From Terriglobales bacterium (lineage in GTDB: Bacteria; Acidobacteriota; Terriglobia; Terriglobales; Acidobacteriaceae), in contig DASTZZ010000107.1 of NCBI GenBank assembly GCA_035764005.1, positions 1 through 64,000 of the forward strand: 64,000 nt of DNA. Direction: 5' to 3'. The notes below the pieces were generated by a model, which made no database searches, was not told the origin of the DNA, and was given only the letters and a program-made list of their open reading frames with translations. The position numbers were made by a program, and so were the translations under genes. Positions 9,611 to 56,571 of the stretch are shown one piece after another; the first letter of the stretch is position 1, and each line of letters opens with the position of its first letter.

Positions 9611-9730
9611 ACCACGAAGATCACAAAGTCAGTACCGTCCGCGGTAGCGGATCGGGTTAGCTCGATTGTGTCTGTTCACCCATTCGCTACCGCGAACCGT
9701 ACTGACTTATCGATGCGTGGCCTTCGTGTT
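9611..9730. repeat. Nested inverted repeat between hpnH and the small conserved gene
   Basis: Outer arms carry CACGAAG/CTTCGTG words (about 9611-9624 and 9717-9730). Inner arms 9626-9651 and 9683-9708 match at 23 of 26 positions by eye, with a 31 bp loop. A transcript from either strand could fold here, so it may act as a terminator or RNA-stability element. It belongs to the group of degenerate inverted repeats seen elsewhere in the window. Confidence 0.7.
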
Positions 9731-10847
9731 AACTCCGGGTGAGTTGTTCGCTGTTTGTCTCAATCTGTACCAGCGGATTAAACGCGTGCACCGGCCGCAC
9801 TGGATCGTTCAGCAGTTTCAGCGCGCCTTCGTCCTTATGGCTCGCAAAAGTCGCGCGGATGGTCTGCAGGAATCCGCGCAGTGAGCTGAACGTGTGATCG
9901 ACTGCCGAAACCTCGTAGCCGCTATGCACCATGCAGTTCGCGCAGCGCGGATTTCCCGATTCGGTACCGTACATGTGCCACTCGGTTGCTTCCATCAACT
10001 CCTGGAACGTGTCGGCGTATCCGTCTTGTAACAGATAGCAAGGCTTCTGCCAGCCGAAGATGTTGAACGTTGGCATGCCCCACGGTGTGCATGAATACTG
10101 TTGCTTGCCCATCAGGAATTCAAGAAATAGGGGCGACTGATTAAACCGCCAACTCTTCTTGCGATTAGACAAGATGGCGCGGAAAAGCCGGCGTGTGCGG
10201 GCACGTCCGAGAAAGTGCTTCTGGTCCGGTGCCTTGTCGTACGAATAGCCCGGCGAGAGCATCATGCTCTCCACGCCAAGCTTCATCATTTCGTCGAAGT
10301 GCGAACGCACGCTGTTGGGATCAGCGCCGTCGAACAGCGTCGTGTTGGTTGTGATGCGGAAGCCGCGACGGATCGCTTCGCGAATGCCTTCGACTGCTAT
10401 GTCGTATCCACCTTCGCGGCAGACGGAAAAATCGTGGTGCTCGCGTTGACCATCGATGTGAACCGAGAAGGTCAGGTACTTACTGGGCTTGAACAGATCG
10501 AGCTTCTCTTTGAGCAGCAGCGCGTTGGTGCAGAGGTAAATGTACTTCTTGCGCGAGACCAAGCCTTCCACGATCTTATCGATCTCGGAATGCATGAGCG
10601 GTTCGCCGCCCGGGATGCTGACCACCGGCGCGCCGCATTCGTCAACGGCACGGAAGCATTCTTCCGGCGTGAGCTGCTGTTTGAGGATGTGAGCGGGGTA
10701 CTGGATCTTGCCGCATCCGGCGCACGCCAGGTTGCAGCGGAAGAGGGGTTCGAGCATGAGCACGAGCGGATAGCGCTTGCGTCCTTTCAGCTTCTGCTTA
10801 AGGACGTAAGTCGATACCGTCCACATTTGTGAGATTGGTCCCGGCAA
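9729..10847 (-). CDS. hpnH: Adenosyl-hopene transferase (radical SAM)
   Basis: 372 residues. The radical SAM cluster motif [10 protein letters not shown] (Cys38, Cys42, Cys45) sits in the family block [20 protein letters not shown]. It continues with [14 protein letters not shown] (SAM-binding GGE motif) and a C-terminal HpnH extension that includes the cysteine-containing [15 protein letters not shown]. HpnH adds a 5'-deoxyadenosyl group to diploptene, the first step of C35 hopanoid side-chain synthesis. The frame starts with TTG at 10847, which fits the family N-terminus and has GGAGAG 7 bp upstream; an ATG at 10826 is less likely. It follows shc in the same direction, separated by a 132 bp gap containing a palindromic repeat. 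Confidence 0.93.
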
Positions 10848-10878: not shown

Positions 10879-10977
10879 TTGTCATTCCGAACCGCGTGCT
10901 TTGGCGGCGCGGAATCCCTATTTATACCGATACCGTTTGGGCACGGTAGGGATTCCTCCCTACGGTCGGAATGACAA
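10879..10977. repeat. Palindromic repeat element between shc and hpnH
   Basis: Outer arms TTGTCATTCCGAACCG (10879-10894) and CGGTCGGAATGACAA (10963-10977) are complementary apart from one extra base. Inside is a perfect 10 bp inverted pair, GGAATCCCTA (10911-10920) and TAGGGATTCC (10947-10956). Design and end sequence (GTCATTCC/GTCATCCT) resemble the longer elements at 42.6 and 54.9 kb. Confidence 0.75.
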
Positions 10978-10979
10978 TG

Positions 10980-12929
10980 CTAATTGCGTTCTGTACATAC
11001 CTTCCCGTATGTCGTGAGCGCGATCAATGGGAAGTACACCCGATACAGGTGGTACGCCAAATAAAATACCCGAGGGAATCCGGTTCCTGTGTACTGCGGC
11101 TCATCCCAACCGCCGTCCTTGCGCTGCGTTCGCAGCAGATATGCAATGCCGCGGGCCACAGCGTCACTGCGAGTGTCGCCAGCCGCCAGCAATCCCATAA
11201 TCGCCCACGCCGTTTGTGAGGGTGTGCTCGGACCTAGCCCCTTTTTAGTGGGATCGTCGTACGACATGCAACTCTCGCCCCATCCGCCATCCGAGTTCTG
11301 GTACATGCGCAGCCACTCCGCGGCCTGCTGAATACAGGGCTCGTGATTGTCCACACCCATGGCTTCCATTCCGCGCAAAACGAGCATCGTCCCGTAAATG
11401 TAATTGACGCCCCAGCGCCCGAACCATGAGCCATCGGATTCCTGCTTCCGTTTCAGGAATTCGAGCGCCTTCTTCACGCGGCGATCGCTCTGTGTATAAC
11501 CGTAGGTCGCGAGACACTCGAGGATGCGGCCAGTGATGTCCACCGTCGCTGGATCGAGCATGGCGTTGTGATCGGCGAAGGGAATGTGCTCGAACATCAT
11601 CTTGTCGTTGTCTTTGTCGAACGATGCCCACCCACCATCCTTGCACTGCATGGCAAAGATCCAGTCGATCGCTCGCTGTACCGATTCGTGCTGGTAACGC
11701 TCGTTCGGCACCTGAATTTTGCTCAGACCGAGCGCGACCATCGCGGTATCGTCCACGTCGGGATAAAACTCATTGTTGAACTCGAAATACCAGCCCGCGG
11801 GCGCCGCATCTTTCACCTTCACTGACCAGTCGCCCCTGTGCGTGACCTGCTTCTGCAGCAGCCATTCCCCAACGGCCACCATGCGCGGATCGGTCGCCGG
11901 CACTCCGGCTTCGCCGAGCGCGAACGCAGCATATGCCGTGTCCCATACAGGCGATTTGCAGGGCTGCATGCGGAAGGTTTCTTCCTCCTCGATTCCGAGC
12001 GCTTCGAACTCATCGATTGCACGGATCACCTGCGGATCGTCGGTCGAGTAGCCCAGGCATCGCAGCGCGATGATCGAATTCATAATCGCCGGATAGATGG
12101 CGGCCAGTCCGTCGCTCATCTCCATGTGTTCGATCATCCATTCTTCGGCAGCTTTCAAGGCAATCGAGCGCAGCGGGCGCACGTGAACCGCCTCGAACCA
12201 GTGCGTAAGACGATCGAGCACCAGGAAGAAGTTGCGCCAACTGATGAGCTTGTCACTCCACTTCAGACGCAGATCAGTGTTGTGGCGTCCGTCGGGAAAC
12301 AACTCCTGGATCCCCATCTCGTCGGGAATCTTCTTGAACGGCTTCTTCGCATAGCAGATCGAGAGCGGCACAAGAATGCCGCGCGACCATGACGAAATTT
12401 CGTAAATGTTGAACCAGAACCACTTCGGGAATAGCACGATCTCCGGCGGGACTGCAGGGACGGCATCGTAGTCGTACTGTCCGAGGAAGCAGAGATAGAT
12501 CTTCGTAAAGGTGTTGACCGCAGTAACGCCACCGAGCGCGAATATGCGCTCACGCGCGCGGACCAAAATGGGATCGTCGGGCCTGTGTCCGGTGAGCTTC
12601 AGTCCCAGATACGCTTTCACCGTTGCGCTGATATTCGAAGGACCGCCGTGGTAAATCGGCCACCCGCCATCTTCGTTCTGATGGCGAATGATCTCCCGTG
12701 CGGTCTTCTGCAGGCGCACTTCATCGCGCGTCCCAAGCAGCGTGTGCAGCAGGATGTAATCGGATTCTAGGGTGGTATCGGCTTCGAGTTCGCCGCACCA
12801 GAAGCCTTCGGGATCTTGCGTTGAGAAGAGGAATCGACGCGCGCCATCCACCGCTGCGGCTACGCGGCTGGCAATGTCATCGATTTTGCCAAACACCATC
12901 TGCACAGGGCGACGGGGGGATTCGTCCAT
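10980..12929 (-). CDS. shc: Squalene-hopene cyclase
   Basis: 649 residues, typical of the family. The catalytic DxDD motif is visible as DVDDTAM at residues 391-397. QW-type repeats stabilise the alpha/alpha barrels: QNEDGGW (84-90), QCKDGGWASF, QESDGSWFGRWG, QNSDGGWGE and QRKDGGWDE. The enzyme is a monotopic membrane protein that cyclises squalene to hopene and hopanol, the base of the hopanoids that order the outer membrane. It starts at the ATG at 12929, 8 bp after the ispH stop, so the two are very likely co-transcribed. No squalene synthase genes (hpnCDE) lie in the window. Confidence 0.96.
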   Translation of the reverse strand: MDESPRRPVQMVFGKIDDIASRVAAAVDGARRFLFSTQDPEGFWCGELEADTTLESDYILLHTLLGTRDEVRLQKTAREIIRHQNEDGGWPIYHGGPSNISATVKAYLGLKLTGHRPDDPILVRARERIFALGGVTAVNTFTKIYLCFLGQYDYDAVPAVPPEIVLFPKWFWFNIYEISSWSRGILVPLSICYAKKPFKKIPDEMGIQELFPDGRHNTDLRLKWSDKLISWRNFFLVLDRLTHWFEAVHVRPLRSIALKAAEEWMIEHMEMSDGLAAIYPAIMNSIIALRCLGYSTDDPQVIRAIDEFEALGIEEEETFRMQPCKSPVWDTAYAAFALGEAGVPATDPRMVAVGEWLLQKQVTHRGDWSVKVKDAAPAGWYFEFNNEFYPDVDDTAMVALGLSKIQVPNERYQHESVQRAIDWIFAMQCKDGGWASFDKDNDKMMFEHIPFADHNAMLDPATVDITGRILECLATYGYTQSDRRVKKALEFLKRKQESDGSWFGRWGVNYIYGTMLVLRGMEAMGVDNHEPCIQQAAEWLRMYQNSDGGWGESCMSYDDPTKKGLGPSTPSQTAWAIMGLLAAGDTRSDAVARGIAYLLRTQRKDGGWDEPQYTGTGFPRVFYLAYHLYRVYFPLIALTTYGKVCTERN

Positions 12930-34783: not shown

Positions 34784-35145
34784 GTCTATTTTCCGCCTTC
34801 AGTCTCGACACAACCGCCGGGCTTTCACTCGGTTCGGCTGCTCGAAACGGGGATGTTGAAAGCAATCCGCCGGCTCCAGTAGGTCCACTACGCTGGTTCG
34901 CGCCCGACCTACGGGGATGTTGAAGCCGACATCTATTCGATGTCCCAGCCGCCCAAAAGTCGCCAGGTTGCTGGCGTTTTCAGGCGCTTAGACCTATATA
35001 GTGTCGCATTTCTGAGGCCCTCGGTGCAACGCGAACAGCGGATATCTGCCGCTTAGCCATTACCAGTAGCCTTTCTGTACGATTACTAAGGCCGGACTCC
35101 GTGACCTTCTCTGTGCCTTCGTGACCTTTGTGTTCGCTCCTCCGT
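34784..35145. other. Intergenic region between nadA and the Get3/ArsA gene, divergent promoters expected
   Basis: About 360 bp without a convincing gene. It holds a direct repeat, ACGGGGATGTTGAA, twice (about 34847-34861 and 34912-34926), and, just before the ATPase gene, GTGACCTTCTCTGTGCC and TTCGTGACCTTTGTG words of the CACGAAGG repeat class (35101-35131). Genes on both sides point away, so promoters of both must lie here, but I see no clear -35/-10 pair. Confidence 0.6.
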
Positions 35146-39902: not shown

Positions 39903-40667
39903 ATGCTCGAGTTGCGGCACGTTACGAAACTCTACGCGGCGATTCCCGCCGTCTCTGACGTCAGCTTCATAGCACCTGCCGGAGAAGTAACCGGCTATCT
40001 CGGGCCAAATGGATCAGGCAAATCGACAACGCTGAAGATGATCGCCTGTCTGATCGACCCCAGCGAAGGCCAGATTCTTTTTCGTGGTGAACCGATCAGC
40101 CGCAATCGCATCAAGTACCGGCAATCCTTCGGATACGTTCCCGAAGAGCCGCAACTGTATCCACACCTCACCGGCGAAGAGTACATCCGCATGGTGGGCG
40201 AGCTGCGGGGGATTCCTGAGCAGCAGTTAGAAGCGCGGCTAAACGGATTCCTGCGCCTGTTCTCGCTCGAAGACAACCGTCACGTCGCGATCTCTTCTTA
40301 CTCAAAGGGCATGCGCCAGAAGGTCTTGTTGTCTTCTGCTCTTCTCCACAATCCCGATCTCATCCTGCTCGACGAGCCCTTTTCGGGACTCGATGTGAAC
40401 TCGGCGATGATCTTGAAAGATCTAATCCGCCAGCTCGCGGCACGCGGCAAAGTCGTGCTGTTCAGCTCGCACGAACTCGAGACGGTCGAGCGCGTTTGCT
40501 CGCGCGTGATCATCCTGCACAAAGGGCATCTGGTCGCAAACGATTCCATCGAGAAGCTGCGGACGCTGATGTCGCTTGCGTCGCTGGAAAAGATTTTTGC
40601 GCAACTCGCGGTGGAGCAGGATCCGAGCGAAGTGACACGAGAGATCGTCGAACTGATGGAGACGTAG
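39903..40667 (+). CDS. ABC transporter ATP-binding protein
   Basis: 254 residues from the ATG at 39903; the longer open frame upstream has no family similarity. Walker A is GPNGSGKST (34-42), Q-loop SFGYVPEEPQLYPHLT, signature YSKGMRQKV (a modified LSGGQ), Walker B LILLDEPFSGLD and the switch histidine SSHELE. This is the exporter type of ATPase (ABC-2/Bcr-like) that pairs with large permeases. The next gene begins 2 bp after the stop. Substrate is unknown; PadR control suggests a drug- or stress-related exporter. Confidence 0.92.
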   Translation: MLELRHVTKLYAAIPAVSDVSFIAPAGEVTGYLGPNGSGKSTTLKMIACLIDPSEGQILFRGEPISRNRIKYRQSFGYVPEEPQLYPHLTGEEYIRMVGELRGIPEQQLEARLNGFLRLFSLEDNRHVAISSYSKGMRQKVLLSSALLHNPDLILLDEPFSGLDVNSAMILKDLIRQLAARGKVVLFSSHELETVERVCSRVIILHKGHLVANDSIEKLRTLMSLASLEKIFAQLAVEQDPSEVTREIVELMET

Positions 40668-40669
40668 TC

Positions 40670-42451
40670 ATGCTCAGCGAGGCGAAGCAGGTCAAGATTC
40701 TGTTCCGCGCTTTCCTCAGCCGCATTCTCGATTTCGAGTTGCTGTCGAACGGCGCCGAATCGCAAAACCTGCTCGTCCAATTTGCGGCGCTGCTGGGAGC
40801 TTTTAGCTTCGTTCTTACGATTCTTCTGGTCCCTCGCTACGGTACATCAACACAATCGCATGCAGCGCTCATCGTGAACGCCTGGCACGACGAAGAGTTC
40901 CTGATCGCCACGACGATTGCAGTCTCTGCTTTCTTGATGGTGCTTTCTTGGGATACTTTGATTCCTGATCGGCGCGACTGCATTGCGCTTGGAGTTCTAC
41001 CGGTTCGCAGCCGCACAATCCTGCTGGCGAAACTTGCGGCGATTGGCAGCGCGACCGGCGCGGCGGTGGTGCTGGTAAACATCTTCACCAGTTTCTGCTA
41101 TCCGCTCGTCCTGCTTCCGAGTGCCGGCGGATTCTTCACTCTGCTGCGCACATTCCTTGCGTATTGGATCACGATGCTTGCAGCGGGAATCTTTATTGCC
41201 TGCGCCGTTCTTTCCATTCAGGGAATTCTCACCCAGGTACTTCCTCAGCGTCTCTTCTTCCGAATCTCAGGATTGCTGCAGGTCACTGTCTTCTTCTTCG
41301 TACTGGCGATCTATTTCTTGAAGCCGCCCTTAGCCACGCCGAGGGACCTGTTTGCTTCTCGCCCGAGCCAGTGGCTGCTGTGGACGCCCTCGTACTGGTT
41401 CTTCGGGCTCTTTCACAAATTGAACGGATCTGCGCCCGGACGCGCATTCAATTGGCTAGCCCTCCGCGCAATATGGGCGCTGCTGGCCTCATTGCTCGGT
41501 GCGGCAGTGGCCTACGCTCTAAGCTACGCGCGGACGATGCGCCGCATTGTCGAGCAGCCTGACATTCTGCCAGCAGAACGGAGCCACGGCACTGGGATGC
41601 TTGTGCGATGGTTACAGCGGAGAGCATTCAGGAAACCGCTTCAACGCGCACTCGTGCTCTTTACGGCGCGCACACTGGCGCGCAGTAGACAGCATCGCTT
41701 GTTGATTGCGTTCTATTTCGGTATCGGAGTTGCCATAGCGCTCGCGTACTTCAATACGTTTCGGGAGAGCAACGTGCAGGAAAGATTGCCTATACATGCG
41801 TTTATCACGGCCAGCCTCTTCCTGCTGTTTTTCGCGATTCTCTCCGTCCGTGCGTCCTTTGTTCTTCCACACACGCTGCGGGCGAACTGGGTCTTCCGTA
41901 CCACCCTGGTCCACCGGCCATCGGAGTACCTGAACGCGGTGCGTAGCTCGTTGTATTTGATTTCTGCCTTCCCGATTTGGATCGTCTGCGCCGTTCTGTT
42001 TGCCGGCATGTGGTCCGGCCGGCCTGCACTCGAACACATTCTCGTGTTGATCCTGATCGGAGTCTTCATGGTTGAACGATCACTCAACGGTTTTCGCAAA
42101 ATACCGTTCGCGTGCTCATACCTGCCGGGAAAGGCGAACCTGAAGGTCACGCTGGCGCTGTACGGATCGATCATCTTTTTCGGAATGAATGCCCTGGGTG
42201 CAATTGAAACCTGGACATTGAATCGCCTGGTTGCGTACGTCGTCGTGTTAATTGTTGTGGCTGCATTCGCGGCAGTAGCCTTTCATCGCAGAGCGGAATT
42301 CGCCAATGCTCCTCACATCTCGCTCCAATTCGACGATGTTCCGCCTGACTCCTTCTTCTCGCTCGATCTGGCGGGCGATCGCGATCTCACGAATGATGAT
42401 GAGAACGTAGATTCGCAAGCCGCTGGAGCGACGCGGAAGCAACCCTCATAG
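40670..42451 (+). CDS. ABC-2-type permease, large membrane protein
   Basis: 593 residues from ATG 40670. At least ten hydrophobic segments: FAALLGAFSFVLTILLV, IATTIAVSAFLMVLSW, a repeated pattern in the centre (VTVFFFVLAIYFL, WALLASLLGAAVAYAL) and near the end (VVVLIVVAAFAAVAFH). No periplasmic domain of MacB type is present. It is the membrane partner of the ABC ATPase, with which it is translationally coupled (2 bp spacing). A polar C-terminal tail follows the last helix. Substrate is unknown. Confidence 0.82.
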   Translation: MLSEAKQVKILFRAFLSRILDFELLSNGAESQNLLVQFAALLGAFSFVLTILLVPRYGTSTQSHAALIVNAWHDEEFLIATTIAVSAFLMVLSWDTLIPDRRDCIALGVLPVRSRTILLAKLAAIGSATGAAVVLVNIFTSFCYPLVLLPSAGGFFTLLRTFLAYWITMLAAGIFIACAVLSIQGILTQVLPQRLFFRISGLLQVTVFFFVLAIYFLKPPLATPRDLFASRPSQWLLWTPSYWFFGLFHKLNGSAPGRAFNWLALRAIWALLASLLGAAVAYALSYARTMRRIVEQPDILPAERSHGTGMLVRWLQRRAFRKPLQRALVLFTARTLARSRQHRLLIAFYFGIGVAIALAYFNTFRESNVQERLPIHAFITASLFLLFFAILSVRASFVLPHTLRANWVFRTTLVHRPSEYLNAVRSSLYLISAFPIWIVCAVLFAGMWSGRPALEHILVLILIGVFMVERSLNGFRKIPFACSYLPGKANLKVTLALYGSIIFFGMNALGAIETWTLNRLVAYVVVLIVVAAFAAVAFHRRAEFANAPHISLQFDDVPPDSFFSLDLAGDRDLTNDDENVDSQAAGATRKQPS

Positions 42452-42568: not shown

Positions 42569-42716
42569 TGTCATCCTGAAGGCCATCTTTTGGCCGAAGG
42601 ATCTCCCGGGATGTTTCGGCTTGAAATGCTTTAGAGTGGCTCTCTACGAGAAACGCTATGTTCATTGGCCAAGAGCCCGGGAGATCCTTCGCGCAAAAGA
42701 GCGCTTCAGGATGACA
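42569..42716. repeat. Structured inverted-repeat element (copy 1)
   Basis: Left arm 42569-42610 and right arm 42676-42716 are near-perfect complements, from TGTCATCCTGAAG inward to GAAGGATCTCCCGGG. Each arm contains its own small hairpin: GGCC-ATCTTTT-GGCC on the left and GCGC-AAAAGA-GCGC on the right. The body between is similar to copy 2 (54855-55037), including a GATGTTTCGGCTTGAAATGC stretch. It fills most of the gap between the ABC permease and chitinase genes. Confidence 0.85.
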
Positions 42717-49295: not shown

Positions 49296-49304
49296 ACGAA
49301 ATTA

Positions 49305-49409
49305 GGGTACAGGGGACAGGTTACAGGGAACAGGAAAGACTCGCCAGTCCCTGAGCAATCGAGTCGGCTCGATGTTTTTCCTGTTCCCTGTTACCCGTCA
49401 CCTGTAACC
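49305..49409. repeat. Inverted repeat of degenerate ACAGGGA words
   Basis: Left arm 49305-49337 (GGGTACAGGGGACAGG then TTACAGGGAACAGGAAA) and right arm 49375-49409 (TTTTTCCTGTTCCCTG then TTACCCGTCACCTGTAACC) are degenerate tandem words in inverted order. It lies between the divergent FmdB and YheT genes, so it is not simply a terminator; the promoters of both must overlap it or lie beside it. Confidence 0.75.
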
Positions 49410-49414
49410 TCGGC

Positions 49415-52881: not shown

Positions 52882-53850
52882 TTAGCGGTTGTAAACCGGA
52901 ATTGGACCACGCAATTCTCTCCAGACTTCATCGCACGCTTTGACCACATCTTCTGGCAAACGTCCTTCTTCACACGCCGCGAGGTTCTGGGCGAGTTGCT
53001 CCGGACGCGATGCGCCGAGGATCACGCAATCGCTCGCGGTGTGATGCAGGAGCCAGTTGAAGGCAATGCTGATCAGCGAGCGTCCCGATTTCTCCGAAAT
53101 GACTTTCAGTTTCTCGACCGCTTCAAAGTCCTGCTTGTGCCAGTAGCGGTCCTGATAGAGCTTGTTGTTGTCGAACCGCGTGCCCGGAGTGACCGTCTGC
53201 ATCTGGTGCTTGCCGGTAAGCAGGCCGGCCGCGAGCGGGTTATAGACGATGTTGGATAACCCGTAGTGCTTGGTCATCGGCAGCCATTCCTGCTCGATGC
53301 CGCGCGCCAACAGGTTGTACATCGGTTGCGTGATCACCGCCGGCTTGTAGTTCTTCTTCTCGGCGATCCAGAGCATTTCGACCTGCTGCCATGCAGCGTA
53401 ATTGGAAGTAGCCGGATAGCGAATCTTGCCTTGCTTCACCAGCAATTCGAGCGTGTCGAGCGTTTCCTCAGTCGCGACGTCGTAATCGGGATAATGCAGA
53501 TAGTAGATGTCGAGATAGTCGGTCTGCAGCCTCTTCAGGCTCTCCTCGACTGCGCGCAGGATGGCTTTGCGCGAGAGGCCGCTCTGGTCGGGGCCGTCTC
53601 CCATTTTGAAACGGACCTTGCTGGCCAGGATGAGGTTCTTGCGGCGCCCTTTCAAAGCCTCGCCGAGCATGGTTTCAGCAACACCAAGCTGATACATGTT
53701 GGCGGTATCGAAGAAATTGATACCGGCCTCGATGCATTGATCGACCATGCGCGTCGAGGTCGCCTGATCCGCAGGTTTGCCGAATGTCATGGTGCCGAAG
53801 CAAAGGCGGGAGATATTCAGGTCAGTACGATTGAGCTTCTTGAACATCAT
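52882..53850 (-). CDS. Aldo/keto reductase
   Basis: 322 residues. The (beta/alpha)8 fold shows GTMTFGKPADQ, NFFDTANMYQLGVAETMLGEAL (catalytic aspartate and tyrosine), ILASKVRFKMGD (catalytic lysine) and DYLDIYYLHYPDYD (catalytic histidine); ISIAFNWLLHH and VILGASRPEQL bind NADPH. The closest general class is the AKR11/AKR12-type oxidoreductases. The start overlaps the aldolase gene stop by 4 bp, so it belongs to the sugar-acid island and may reduce an aldehyde product, for example tartronate semialdehyde, though no specific substrate can be proven. Confidence 0.92.
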   Translation of the reverse strand: MMFKKLNRTDLNISRLCFGTMTFGKPADQATSTRMVDQCIEAGINFFDTANMYQLGVAETMLGEALKGRRKNLILASKVRFKMGDGPDQSGLSRKAILRAVEESLKRLQTDYLDIYYLHYPDYDVATEETLDTLELLVKQGKIRYPATSNYAAWQQVEMLWIAEKKNYKPAVITQPMYNLLARGIEQEWLPMTKHYGLSNIVYNPLAAGLLTGKHQMQTVTPGTRFDNNKLYQDRYWHKQDFEAVEKLKVISEKSGRSLISIAFNWLLHHTASDCVILGASRPEQLAQNLAACEEGRLPEDVVKACDEVWRELRGPIPVYNR

Positions 53851-54656
53851 CGGGCAGGAGTGCTCGCTTTCCGGTTATGAATGGCCTCGTTTAATTGTTT
53901 AAGAATCGTCTGCGCGCCGATCCGCAGACACGCAATGTCGTTGCCGCAGAAAAGCAGGTCGATTCCCTGGTCGACCCAGAACTGCACGTCAGGGAGAGGA
54001 GCGCCGACCGCGACCAGTTTGTCGTGCTTCCGCGCACTGCGCAGAATCTTCTGAATCGCTTCGGCCACTTTCGGGTGCGTTGTCTGGCCGGGCACGCCAA
54101 GACTCGCGGAAAGATCCGCTGGGCCGATGAAAATATCGATGCCATCGATCACGCAGAGTTCATCGACGCGATTTACCGCCTCCTCAGTTTCAATCTGGAT
54201 CATCAGGCAAAGTTCAGAGTTGACCTTCTGCTGAGCGGCGGGAAGGCTGTCGGTGATTCCATAATCGAGTGCGCGAGGAACGCTGAAATATCCGCGCGCG
54301 CCTGCCGGCCGAAAACGGGCGTGCTGGGTGAACGCGCGCACGATCTCCGGCGAGTCAGCCATTGGCAGGTCGAGGATGTCCGGTCCGCACTCGGCCGCCT
54401 TGAGCACGCTCTCGCGGCGATTGTCGGGGATGCGAATCATCGTGAGCATCCCAGCGCCCGAAGCAATGCGACACAGATTGGCTGCTTCGGCGAACGTAAT
54501 GTGCGCGTGCTCCATCTCGATCCAGAGCACGCGAAAGCCAAGCTTGGCTGCGATCTCGACAAAGATCGGATCGTAGAAATATGCAGCGATGCCCAGCAGA
54601 GGTGCGCCGGATTCTTTAACTGCGCGGCTCACGCGCGTTGTTCTTTTTTCACTCAT
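53847..54656 (-). CDS. HpcH/HpaI-family aldolase (2-keto-3-deoxy-sugar-acid aldolase-like)
   Basis: 269 residues. The barrel shows RVLWIEMEHAHIT, LTMIRIPDN, GYFSVPRALDYG, MIQIETEEAVNRVDEL (metal-binding glutamate) and the signature IDIFIGPADLSASLGVPGQ (aspartate). This family cleaves 5-keto-4-deoxyglucarate or 2-keto-3-deoxyaldonates to pyruvate (or tartronate semialdehyde) and an aldehyde, with a divalent metal. In this neighbourhood it would use the products of the dehydratases and glucarate/galactarate enzymes. It overlaps the aldo/keto reductase gene by 4 bp. GarL-like function is the best guess. Confidence 0.88.
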   Translation of the reverse strand: MSEKRTTRVSRAVKESGAPLLGIAAYFYDPIFVEIAAKLGFRVLWIEMEHAHITFAEAANLCRIASGAGMLTMIRIPDNRRESVLKAAECGPDILDLPMADSPEIVRAFTQHARFRPAGARGYFSVPRALDYGITDSLPAAQQKVNSELCLMIQIETEEAVNRVDELCVIDGIDIFIGPADLSASLGVPGQTTHPKVAEAIQKILRSARKHDKLVAVGAPLPDVQFWVDQGIDLLFCGNDIACLRIGAQTILKQLNEAIHNRKASTPAR

Positions 54657-55112
54657 CGAATGGTCGCCCGGTGACAGGAATCGTGTGATGTGGATAATGT
54701 TCGGTGCACGCTGGCTTCATCGGTTTTATTCAGCAGAATGCCGGGTTCAAGTCCGGAACAGCAGAGAATATCAAGACGGAGGTTTTCGGTTTTTGGAAGA
54801 TGAGACTCTAGTTCGGGAAAGGCCGAATTCATTTGCAACGAGCCCTTCTACTTTCTGTCATCCTGAAGCGCATCCTTTGCGCGAAGGATCTCCGATGATG
54901 CTTCAGGCTGAAATGCCCTTGAGAGGCCCTTCGGCCGAGCGGTCGTGACGGTATGGTGAAGGAGCCACTCGAATGCGATCAAGTCAGATGCCTTTACGGG
55001 AGATCCTTCGCGCAACAGAAGCGCTTCAGGATGACAGAACCGAAAAACATCGACATCCACAGAATGAATCTACAAAAACGCTGAAATCCCCAGTTTTACG
55101 CTGAGGCAAACG
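54657..55112. other. Intergenic region between the aldolase and transporter genes
   Basis: About 456 bp between divergent genes; most is the structured repeat listed at 54855-55037. The part nearest the aldolase gene (54657-54850) should hold its promoter but shows no clear box. The part next to the transporter gene (55038-55112) contains GAGG at 55103-55106, the ribosome-binding site for the TTG start at 55113. Confidence 0.55.
54855..55037. repeat. Structured inverted-repeat element (copy 2)
   Basis: Left arm 54855-54893 (TCTGTCATCCTGAAG.., internal GCGC-ATCCTTT-GCGC hairpin) and right arm 54999-55037 (GGAGATCCTTC.., internal GCGC-AACAGAA-GCGC hairpin) are complementary. Body sequence GATGCTTCAGGCTGAAATGCC matches copy 1 at 42569-42716. 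This copy is longer, by about 35 bp in the centre, and stays between divergent genes. Confidence 0.85.
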
Positions 55113-56390
55113 TTGTCATCGACCATCACCCCGGCTCCCGCTAGCACGCAGGATCAACGTTGGCTGCGCATTCTCACCGTTTCGTTCGTCATGTACACCA
55201 TCTCGTACATCGACCGCACCAACGTGTCGATGGCGCTGCCGCAAATGAGCGCGCAGTTGCACATGGATCCGCAGCAGGCGGGAGATGCGGTGGGCATCTT
55301 CTTCTGGGGATACCTTTTCCTCCAGATGCCTGCCGGACATCTCGCGCAAACCTGGAGCGCGAAACGCGTTGTGGCCATTCTGCTGGTTGCCTGGGGACTC
55401 TGTTCGATTGCAACTGGCCTCGTGAACACGGCGCGCGAGTTCTGGATCATGCGTCTCGTTTTGGGACTGGCAGAGGGCGGAGTCTGGCCGGCGGTGCTGG
55501 TATTGGTTGCGCATTGGTTTCCGCGCCATGAGCGAGCGCGCGCGAACGCCTACTGGATGTTGTGCCTTCCGCTCTCGGTCGTGATTTCCTCACCGTTCTC
55601 CGGATGGCTGCTGAAGCACTGGAACTGGCGAGTGCTGCTGATCGTCGAAGGCGCCTTTCCGTTCCTGTGGCTGCTCATCTGGCTGGCGATGATCGACGAC
55701 TATCCCAAAGATGCGAAATGGATCTCGGCGGGCGAGCGCGACTATCTCGAAACCACCCTCGCTCAGGAAGCCGCCGAGGCAAGAAGCGCGGAACGCACAG
55801 GATACCTGGCTACGCTGCTTTCCCCACAAGTGCTGCTCTTGATCGTGATTTATTTCATGCGCAATTTCGGCAGTTACGGATCGCTGTTCTGGCTGCCATC
55901 CGCCCTCGAAAAAGCCAAGAATCTCAGCGAGCTCACGCTGGGAAACATCGTCAGCATTCCTTACATTTTGGCAGCAATCATGATGGTGGCAACCGCCAAG
56001 AGCTCCGACAGAACCGGCGAACGTCGTGCGCACATGAGCGTAACGTTCATTGTCTCGGGTGGAGCATTTTTGCTCGCGCTGGCTGTGCAGCAGCGACCAT
56101 TGCTTTGCTTCTCATTACTCTCCATAGCAGTCGGCGCCGTGTACGCGTCGCTTGGACCATTTTGGGCGATCCCCACGGAAACTTTGCCGCAGAAATCAGT
56201 AGCCAGTGCAATGGGACTGATCAATGCAATTGGAAATCTCGGAGGCTATTTCGGACCGGTCGTGATCGGATATTTCCTGAAGCGCTCCGGCGGATTCGTG
56301 TATGGGTTCGGAAGCTTAGGCGCCGCGCTGCTGCTTGGGGCCGTGCTGTGCTTCTGTCTGCGCCCGGCTCAGCGACGAGCCGCTACTTGA
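55113..56390 (+). CDS. MFS transporter of the anion:cation symporter family (hexuronate/glucarate type)
   Basis: 425 residues, 12 membrane segments. The signature YTISYIDRTNVSMALPQM near the N-terminus and GIFFWGYLFLQMPAGHLA are typical of the ACS family (ExuT, GudP, DgoT); GLAEGGVWPAVLVLVAHWF and LINAIGNLGGYFGPVVIGYF are the other conserved blocks. These carry organic anions with protons into the cell. In this cluster it is the likely importer of aldarates or aldonates. The start is a TTG with GAGG 6 bp upstream; no ATG is near. The next gene on the strand is a dehydratase, 245 bp away. Confidence 0.9.
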   Translation: MSSTITPAPASTQDQRWLRILTVSFVMYTISYIDRTNVSMALPQMSAQLHMDPQQAGDAVGIFFWGYLFLQMPAGHLAQTWSAKRVVAILLVAWGLCSIATGLVNTAREFWIMRLVLGLAEGGVWPAVLVLVAHWFPRHERARANAYWMLCLPLSVVISSPFSGWLLKHWNWRVLLIVEGAFPFLWLLIWLAMIDDYPKDAKWISAGERDYLETTLAQEAAEARSAERTGYLATLLSPQVLLLIVIYFMRNFGSYGSLFWLPSALEKAKNLSELTLGNIVSIPYILAAIMMVATAKSSDRTGERRAHMSVTFIVSGGAFLLALAVQQRPLLCFSLLSIAVGAVYASLGPFWAIPTETLPQKSVASAMGLINAIGNLGGYFGPVVIGYFLKRSGGFVYGFGSLGAALLLGAVLCFCLRPAQRRAAT

Positions 56391-56430: not shown

Positions 56431-56571
56431 TTGAACACGGAGGGCACGGAGGACGCAGAGGTAGATTCAGGCTTCGAAAAATCGCTACACACTTTCAACA
56501 CTGGTCCTGGAACGGAATCAGGCTTTTTGGCGTCTTGATCCCTCTGTGTCCTCCGTGCCCTCCGTGTTCAA
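56431..56571. repeat. 31 bp inverted repeat of CACGGAGG words
   Basis: Left arm 56431-56461 and right arm 56541-56571 are complementary at 30 of 31 positions: TTGAACACGGAGGGCACGG to GGACGCAGAGG and its complement. The loop is 79 bp. A run of T follows the right arm (56571-56582), as in a terminator for the transporter gene, but the arms also resemble the CACGAAGG-type repeats elsewhere. Confidence 0.8.

Follow-up and report, generated by a model that had tools for sequence, protein, structure and literature searches.

From our analysis of the window (the whole stretch of 64,000 nucleotides) and of the genome that carries it, the dispersed repeat copies in this DNA are probably, at about two chances in three, nuclease-less (non-autonomous) members of a mobile family in which a single-domain GIY-YIG gene lies between an arm and an inverted arm. 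The full form, 470–557 bp long, was found at three loci of the source genome (G000; 5.10 Mb, 131 contigs), which we compared with 80 relatives (81 genomes in all). A non-autonomous mobile element had been one of the readings in an earlier note on this DNA and is now the most likely one; the GIY-YIG link escaped that note because the whole genome was needed to see it. The copies, all three of them intergenic in the 64-kb window, are laid out as follows.

42569..42716, no strand: copy 1, a nuclease-less head-to-head element with the ends TGTC..GACA
42570..42604, plus strand: left arm hairpin of copy 1, GTC-ATCCT-GA-A-GGCC..GGCC-GA-AGGAT-CT
42682..42715, minus strand: right arm hairpin of copy 1, inner stem GCGC/GCGC
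54856..55036, no strand: copy 2, a nuclease-less head-to-head element
54857..54891, plus strand: left arm hairpin of copy 2, inner stem GCGC/GCGC
55001..55035, minus strand: right arm hairpin of copy 2, inner stem GCGC/GCGC
10880..10976, no strand: copy 3, a head-to-head element of the sister class ATTCC/GGAAT
10881..10917, plus strand: left arm of copy 3
10950..10975, minus strand: right arm of copy 3, short form

Each arm consists of GTC, a 5-bp outer stem, GA, an inner hairpin, the returning outer stem and CYC, with a second GA ahead of the closing outer stem in the arms of copies 1 and 2. The outer stem is ATCCT/AGGAT in copies 1 and 2 and ATTCC/GGAAT in copy 3. Copies 1 and 2 lie within a base of where the earlier note had placed them (42569-42716, 54856-55036), and the inner stems it had read are those found (GGCC/GGCC left and GCGC/GCGC right in copy 1, GCGC/GCGC on both sides in copy 2). 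Its third, shorter relative (10880-10976) does keep the ends and a 10-bp inner inverted repeat but belongs to the sister class. Copy 2 lies between an HpcH/HpaI-family gene (53847-54656, minus strand) and an MFS gene (55113-56390, plus strand); copy 3, which is three bases from a gene's stop codon, lies between a radical SAM/DUF3463 gene (9729-10847, minus strand) and a squalene-hopene cyclase gene (10980-12929, minus strand). The left part of copy 1 has 96% identity over 49 bp with an arm that adjoins a GIY-YIG gene elsewhere in the source genome (G000:C19).

Pattern search of the source genome returned 43 exact arms of the form GTCATCCTGA..AGGATCT, and the degenerate frame GTC-ATYCY-GA..RGRAT-CYC returned 209 arms, with 0 in the reversed control. 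The copies are indeed a dispersed repeat, and the chance that fewer than a handful exist genome-wide, which would have told against it, is refuted by these counts. With the strict degenerate pattern, arms were present in 45 of the 81 genomes and absent from 36, with a maximum of 231 in G073. Among 70 distinct arms on fetched source-genome loci, a subset of the 209, a perfect 4-bp inner stem was found in 53, in 12 pair types (GCGC/GCGC 15, GGCC/GGCC 13, ACCG/CGGT 6, GCCC/GGGC 4, CGCC/GGCG 4, and others). When left and right halves were shuffled among arms (n=1000), these chimeras had on average 8.6 perfect stems and at most 17; by class, perfect inner stems numbered 32 of 36 for ATCCT against a chimera mean of 11.7, and 18 of 30 for ATTCC against 2.8. 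Several of the 17 imperfect arms are hairpins of another geometry, with short GCGAAGC-type loops or longer stems. The covariation that the earlier note had read from two copies is thus seen across the sample, and changes do not break the pairing as often as they keep it. A GA precedes the closing outer stem in 43 of 43 exact arms by eye, the pattern itself demanding the left GA only.

Folded as single-stranded DNA, each arm of copies 1 and 2 forms the described hairpin, at -6.1 to -8.2 kcal/mol. The number of shuffles per 200 that fold as well was 2 for the left and 23 for the right arm of copy 1, and 1 and 11 respectively for copy 2; the right arms alone are unremarkable because 23 and 11 of 200 shuffles match them. 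The whole of copy 2 folds with z = -8.1. Tandem GA mismatches and loops of the GCGAAGC kind are known for their stability in single-stranded DNA; in the energy model used, the short GCGAAGC form folds no better than shuffles, 102 of 200 of which fold as well. In three relatives (G012, G023, G020), the same outer frame holds much longer or nested inner palindromes, a set specific to each genome, and it looks as if the inner hairpin were a module that is exchanged or expanded.

At G000:C19, an arm pair 557 bp apart encloses a frameshifted GIY-YIG gene. A PF01541 search of the 81 genomes supplied 110 loci (L155-L264) for scoring, including 25 uvrC controls; the duplicates L209 and L253 were removed from the counts. 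For the flank score, an arm was GTC plus the 5-bp stem, with one mismatch at the stem end allowed, within 260 bp of the gene and pointing at it. Head-to-head arms were found on both sides at 39 of 65 loci of one GIY-YIG subfamily in the source and related genomes, the subfamily cut-off (E < 1e-24) having been chosen after the table was seen. A scan of named genomes with the family alignment (one genome per species, 84,980 species) gave both-sided arms at 43 of 75 subfamily loci, these being the loci with 200 bp on both sides among the best 80, by similarity, of at least 574 relatives. On plasmids, both-sided arms were found at 7 of 14 loci, hand-picked from 37 records with two later records left out. 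The corresponding counts in controls were 0/24 for uvrC, 0/68 for Y1_Tnp and 2/24 for other small GIY-YIG rows; this last control includes fragments of disrupted subfamily genes (L154, L157, L215, L230, L233, L237), and therefore its 2/24 is if anything too high. At least one arm was found at 57/65 subfamily loci in the source and related genomes, 71/75 in named genomes (from the best 80 of at least 574) and 9/14 on plasmids, against 3/24 for uvrC, 2/68 for Y1_Tnp and 7/24 for other small GIY-YIG rows.

These fractions depend on the definition of an arm. With the exact 5-bp stem, both arms remain at 21/65 loci and, in the best 80 of at least 574 named relatives, at 33/75. A half-arm motif was found on both sides at 41/65 subfamily loci in its strict and 45/65 in its broad form (uvrC 0/24, Y1 0/68), and the broad motif on at least one side at 58/65 subfamily loci, 5/24 uvrC and 5/68 Y1 loci. 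Of the 13 loci missed by an early motif, most have arms with other outer stems on visual inspection, e.g., GTCACCCC, GTCATGCT and GTCATCCC. Arms in the opposite direction as well, on both sides and so in clusters, were found at 13/65 subfamily loci.

The flanked gene matches PF01541 over the cut-off, and Y4, Y14, R24, E61 and N80, which we take to be the GIY-YIG catalytic set, are invariant in a 24-row alignment. The nuclease has a distant sequence match to the UPF0213 structures 1zg2 and 1ywl, and four of the nucleases matched no family in NCBIfam. It has the PF01541 domain in common with GIY-YIG homing endonucleases and UPF0213-like small proteins; unlike them, it is free-standing and lies between REP hairpins. 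Among the papers listed from an open-access full-text collection without preprints and most subscription papers, none linking GIY-YIG to these REPs was found, and literature matches to the repeat sequence, among those listed, are apparently chance hits. In one paper (PMC9465073), both GIY-YIG and ‘repetitive extragenic palindrom’ occur, the latter in a cited reference.

We then compared the units with and without the nuclease. In the source genome, the gene lies frameshifted between ATCCT arms at C19 (557 bp), intact between ATTCC arms at C70 (550 bp), frameshifted between ATTCC arms at C38 (470 bp), and intact at C52 among mixed-class arms in both directions. The relative G005 has ATCCT arms on both sides at 3 of 3 subfamily loci tested, one frame being intact; the nuclease locus of G009 has no arms. 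The outer-stem 5-mer was common to both arms of a locus in 63 of 90 loci (permuted mean 18.9, maximum 31, n=2000). Arm class also tracks the nuclease tree, with 38 changes against a shuffled mean of 64 and minimum of 57, an agreement that could also come from common descent. The loci fetched from the window's genus carry 26 arm pairs, of which 14 are 166-182 bp long and two, of 555 and 557 bp, enclose the nuclease; a 497-bp pair at C22 of the source genome has no detectable nuclease remnant.

The inner 50 nt next to the arms show 50% identity between 4 arms of nuclease units (two loci) and 45 other arms of this genus, dropping from 72% over the first ten bases to 34% over the last ten; over the outer 50 nt of the same arms, identity is 29%, with 27% for shuffled sequence. 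Common inner and unrelated outer flanks are what descent of the nuclease-free from the nuclease units would be expected to leave, and we read the short and long forms as probably one element without and with a middle. In S. meliloti Ak57 pSymB (L347 394-462), a nuclease remnant between arms (profile positions 68-90, E = 2.7e-6) adjoins an intact REP-GIY-REP unit and is likely a deletion derivative beside its parent. The sole ATCCT-class nuclease copy found in the source genome is broken, so that the window copies may now be immobile there.

Presence and absence at related sites was seen at two loci of named bacteria. In A. lipoferum 4B, arms and GIY-YIG gene lie between sufB and sufC, and 4 of 4 other Azospirillum (91-97% identity, matched flanks) have neither the gene nor these arms, B510 having a different palindrome at the site. 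Between gltA and lpxB, Sinorhizobium sp. K101 has REPs without a GIY-YIG gene and S. meliloti Ak57 has the gene. For copy 2 of the window, about 185 bp lie between the matched flanks in G001 and G004 as against 525-530 bp in the window; the orthologous spacer sequence inspected in these two relatives contains no visible arm. Around the GH18 stretch matched at the copy 1 site, the 1.5 kb to each side is free of arms in G001, G003 and G004; G005 has one arm about 1 kb away from that stretch. The junctions at sites without the insert are not base-precise and show no duplication, and no clean base-precise empty site was found at three further plasmid loci. Among the 26 elements, a flanking match of 4 bp or more was found at 1 (null 6.3%), so that target-site duplications, which the earlier note had proposed to look for, are not above chance.

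Within the best 80 of at least 574 named loci, all 80 of them in the per-phylum denominators with short flanks included and many being metagenome-assembled genomes, both arms were found in 15 named phyla: Acidobacteriota (15/31), Pseudomonadota (9/10), Chloroflexota (2/10), Verrucomicrobiota (2/5), Bacillota (2/5), Planctomycetota (2/2), Bacteroidota (2/2), Myxococcota (1/2), and single loci of Parcubacteria, Nitrospinota, Calditrichota, Zixiibacteriota, Chlorobiota, Cloacimonadota and Omnitrophota. From the same best 80, both arms were also found at 2 of 3 loci without a phylum name and were absent at single Cyanobacteriota, Ignavibacteriota and Thermodesulfobacteriota loci. The 31 Acidobacteriota among these 80 loci, together with the nadA riboswitches of the window, suggest that phylum for the source genome. 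A GIY-YIG homologue with REPs was also noticed on Planktothrix agardhii plasmid p1 (L345), between an MmeI-type restriction enzyme gene and the DISARM gene drmA.

The subfamily was found in 25 of 31 genomes with at least 5 arms and in 10 of 50 with fewer (Fisher p = 1.2e-7), on the basis of the PF01541 matches listed (E to about 4e-9), with subfamily counts per genome being at least those given and G010 scored positive by a stop-broken copy (E about 1e-18). A search with the family alignment, which took in neither G042 nor the low-arm genomes, added subfamily matches in G005 and G009 and gave none in G037 (15 arms) and G075 (11) and only a fragment in G006 (10). In G042 (10 arms; genome 53% complete), the one GIY-YIG match among those listed is of uvrC size.

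As for their place among known repeats, REPs have been sorted into GTAG and CGTC superfamilies, and the CGTC superfamily, which includes dRS3 of Neisseria and RPE-4/RPE-6 of Rickettsia, is described as often TGTC-tagged, with AT nearly always as the first two stem pairs, mostly in head-to-head dimers, and as repeats that “apparently lack a dedicated transposase” (Di Nocera, De Gregorio, Rocco 2013, PMC3733652). The arms resemble this description in the unpaired tag, the AT start, the dimers and the lack of an adjoining RAYT. A T stands before the GTC of each end in all 26 head-to-head elements at the genus loci fetched, and none of 68 Y1 loci has arms on both sides. The stems start with AT (ATCCT/AGGAT, ATTCC/GGAAT, ATTCT/AGAAT), partly by construction as the pattern demands AT; a looser scan permitting AT or AC still returned mostly AT. 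The published repeats have a continuous 8-9 bp stem with a 4-5 nt loop and mostly a CCA tail (PMC3733652), whereas our arms have a 5-bp outer stem, a GA/GA mismatch (plus one A in the window arms), a variable inner stem of at least 4 bp and a loop, and those listed end in CTC or CCC (the pattern demands CYC, and the exact-arm pattern only CT). The tag, AT start and dimers fit and the continuous stem and CCA tail do not, and therefore we take the arms, judged by sequence, as a probable separate family within the CGTC/TGTC-tagged REP superfamily; the superfamily would be known and the family new. Acidobacteriota are absent from the five phyla given for CGTC repeats in PMC3733652, where no transposase association is reported and the term GIY-YIG does not occur.

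Arms also surround the GIY-YIG gene in N. gonorrhoeae, S. meliloti and A. lipoferum. The N. gonorrhoeae homologue has on both sides CGTCATTCCCGC..GCGGGAAT palindromes, which we take to be dRS3. Neisseriae (at genus level), S. meliloti and A. lipoferum are CGTC-positive according to PMC3733652, which indicates that the GIY-YIG family adjoins classical CGTC REPs too.

Two kinds of known element are comparable. REPIN/RAYT systems with GTAG REPs are reportedly those described by Bertels and Rainey in 2011 and Nunvar in 2010. Like them, the present system has intergenic pairs of inverted hairpin repeats, repeats that flank the gene of a single-domain DNA enzyme and, here, no target-site duplication; unlike them, it has a TGTC instead of a GTAG tag, and the flanked gene is a GIY-YIG nuclease and not an HUH/Y1 transposase. 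The copies are also MITE-like in being short and non-coding with inverted ends and in having flanks in common with a gene-carrying form. They differ from MITEs in that target-site duplication is absent, the ends are themselves hairpins, and the gene-carrying form encodes a GIY-YIG protein and not a known transposase.

We infer that the nuclease moves the arms, and the route of recognition, cleavage, mobilisation and insertion given here is the proposal that we judge most likely. An arm would be recognised by the GIY-YIG nuclease in its hairpin or cruciform form, the GTC tag, outer stem and GA/GA step being the constant part and the inner stem being free to vary as long as it stays paired. The nuclease would nick beside the tag at each end, and the whole unit from arm to arm would be copied or transferred into a new intergenic site, leaving no target duplication. 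Any two-arm unit could then be moved by the nuclease, for which reason internally deleted copies, such as those of the window, would outnumber complete ones. Nicking of the folded arms at their tag would account for the arms that flank the gene, for the covarying stems and for the existence of deletion derivatives. The GIY-YIG fold family includes junction-resolving enzymes. Structure-selective GIY-YIG nucleases include SLX1 and ANKLE1.

The main rival is homing, in which the arms spread by other means and a GIY-YIG gene cuts existing TGTC/CGTC REPs and is copied into them by arm recombination; we consider it unlikely. GIY-YIG genes are the classic homing nucleases, some genomes have arms without a nuclease gene, and the gltA-lpxB pair of Sinorhizobium sp. 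K101 and S. meliloti Ak57 also counts in favour of homing. The inner flank common to nuclease and nuclease-free units (50% against 29% outside) argues against it, although the same sharing would follow from insertion between the arms of a pair already in place; the match of both arms of a unit to each other and the failure to find another mover (Y1_Tnp being the one tested) also count against it. That mover, a RAYT/Y1 HUH transposase spreading a REPIN, was what the earlier note had suggested, and we now regard it as the least probable of all the readings. The architecture would be the same (inverted hairpin pairs, no target-site duplication), and there are 12 Y1_Tnp genes in the source genome and 69 more in 12 relatives. 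At the 68 of these 81 with full flanks, however, arms were on both sides at 0 and on one side at 2, and RAYT/Y1 as the mover was rejected because of these flanks. The inverted repeats beside the inspected Y1_Tnp genes are other palindromes, and G039 (63 arms) and G021 (32 arms) have no Y1_Tnp but do have the GIY-YIG subfamily gene.

Functions in RNA could also keep the hairpins, as bidirectional terminators, protectors of mRNA 3' ends or regulatory RNA, with their spread incidental. REPs act in mRNA, the inner stems covary, and the sites are intergenic, with copy 3 close to a stop codon. Rfam at the gathering score gave no match covering the copies, the window matching only one tRNA and two nadA riboswitches, and a regulatory RNA of a known family is not borne out (the earlier note had entertained a regulatory RNA motif). 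Moreover, a constant frame in which inner stems can be swapped and the placement of arms around a single nuclease family better fit a recognition site; an RNA role could be secondary and leaves the dispersal unexplained, and as the main explanation it is improbable. Slightly more improbable is hitch-hiking, in which short GIY-YIG genes and REPs accumulate in permissive intergenic hotspots with no functional link. Dense clusters with arms in both directions at some loci are in its favour, but two-sided head-to-head arms are found at one nuclease subfamily and not at Y1, uvrC or most other small GIY-YIG genes, and the arms on both sides are of the same class.

The reading of the copies as nuclease-less members of the GIY-YIG family has a wider form, to which we give even odds: the units would be a new class of transposable element and the nuclease the missing mover of the whole CGTC/TGTC REP superfamily, a second system independent of RAYT/HUH. 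A GIY-YIG family between repeats in many phyla is a single testable candidate for the dedicated transposase that CGTC REPs apparently lack according to PMC3733652. If true, GIY-YIG nucleases would join the enzymes that build bacterial intergenic repeats, the keeping of hairpins with interchangeable inner stems would be explained, and the many small genes that carry no annotation beyond ‘GIY-YIG nuclease family protein’ would gain a meaning.

A few further observations concern other elements. Four Y1_Tnp genes of the source genome (L035, L037, L039 and L040, at C72, C72, C17 and C103) lie next to another palindrome, CCACCCTCGCGAAC..GAGAGTGGGGCACCC; a second repeat system, of RAYT type, apparently coexists with the GIY-YIG one. 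In the window, a 651-codon ORF upstream of copy 1 (40496-42451, plus strand) has no Pfam match. Other dispersed or inverted repeats of unrelated types in the window are CACGGAGG-like, ACAGGGGACAGG-like and CAATAGGCAATAGG-like (56431-56571, 49304-49410, 35097/37235 and 44113/45517/45561). The two nadA riboswitches lie in tandem at 34795-34927 on the minus strand (Rfam RF03013, 61.4 and 50.2 bits) and are, to our knowledge, restricted to Acidobacteriota.
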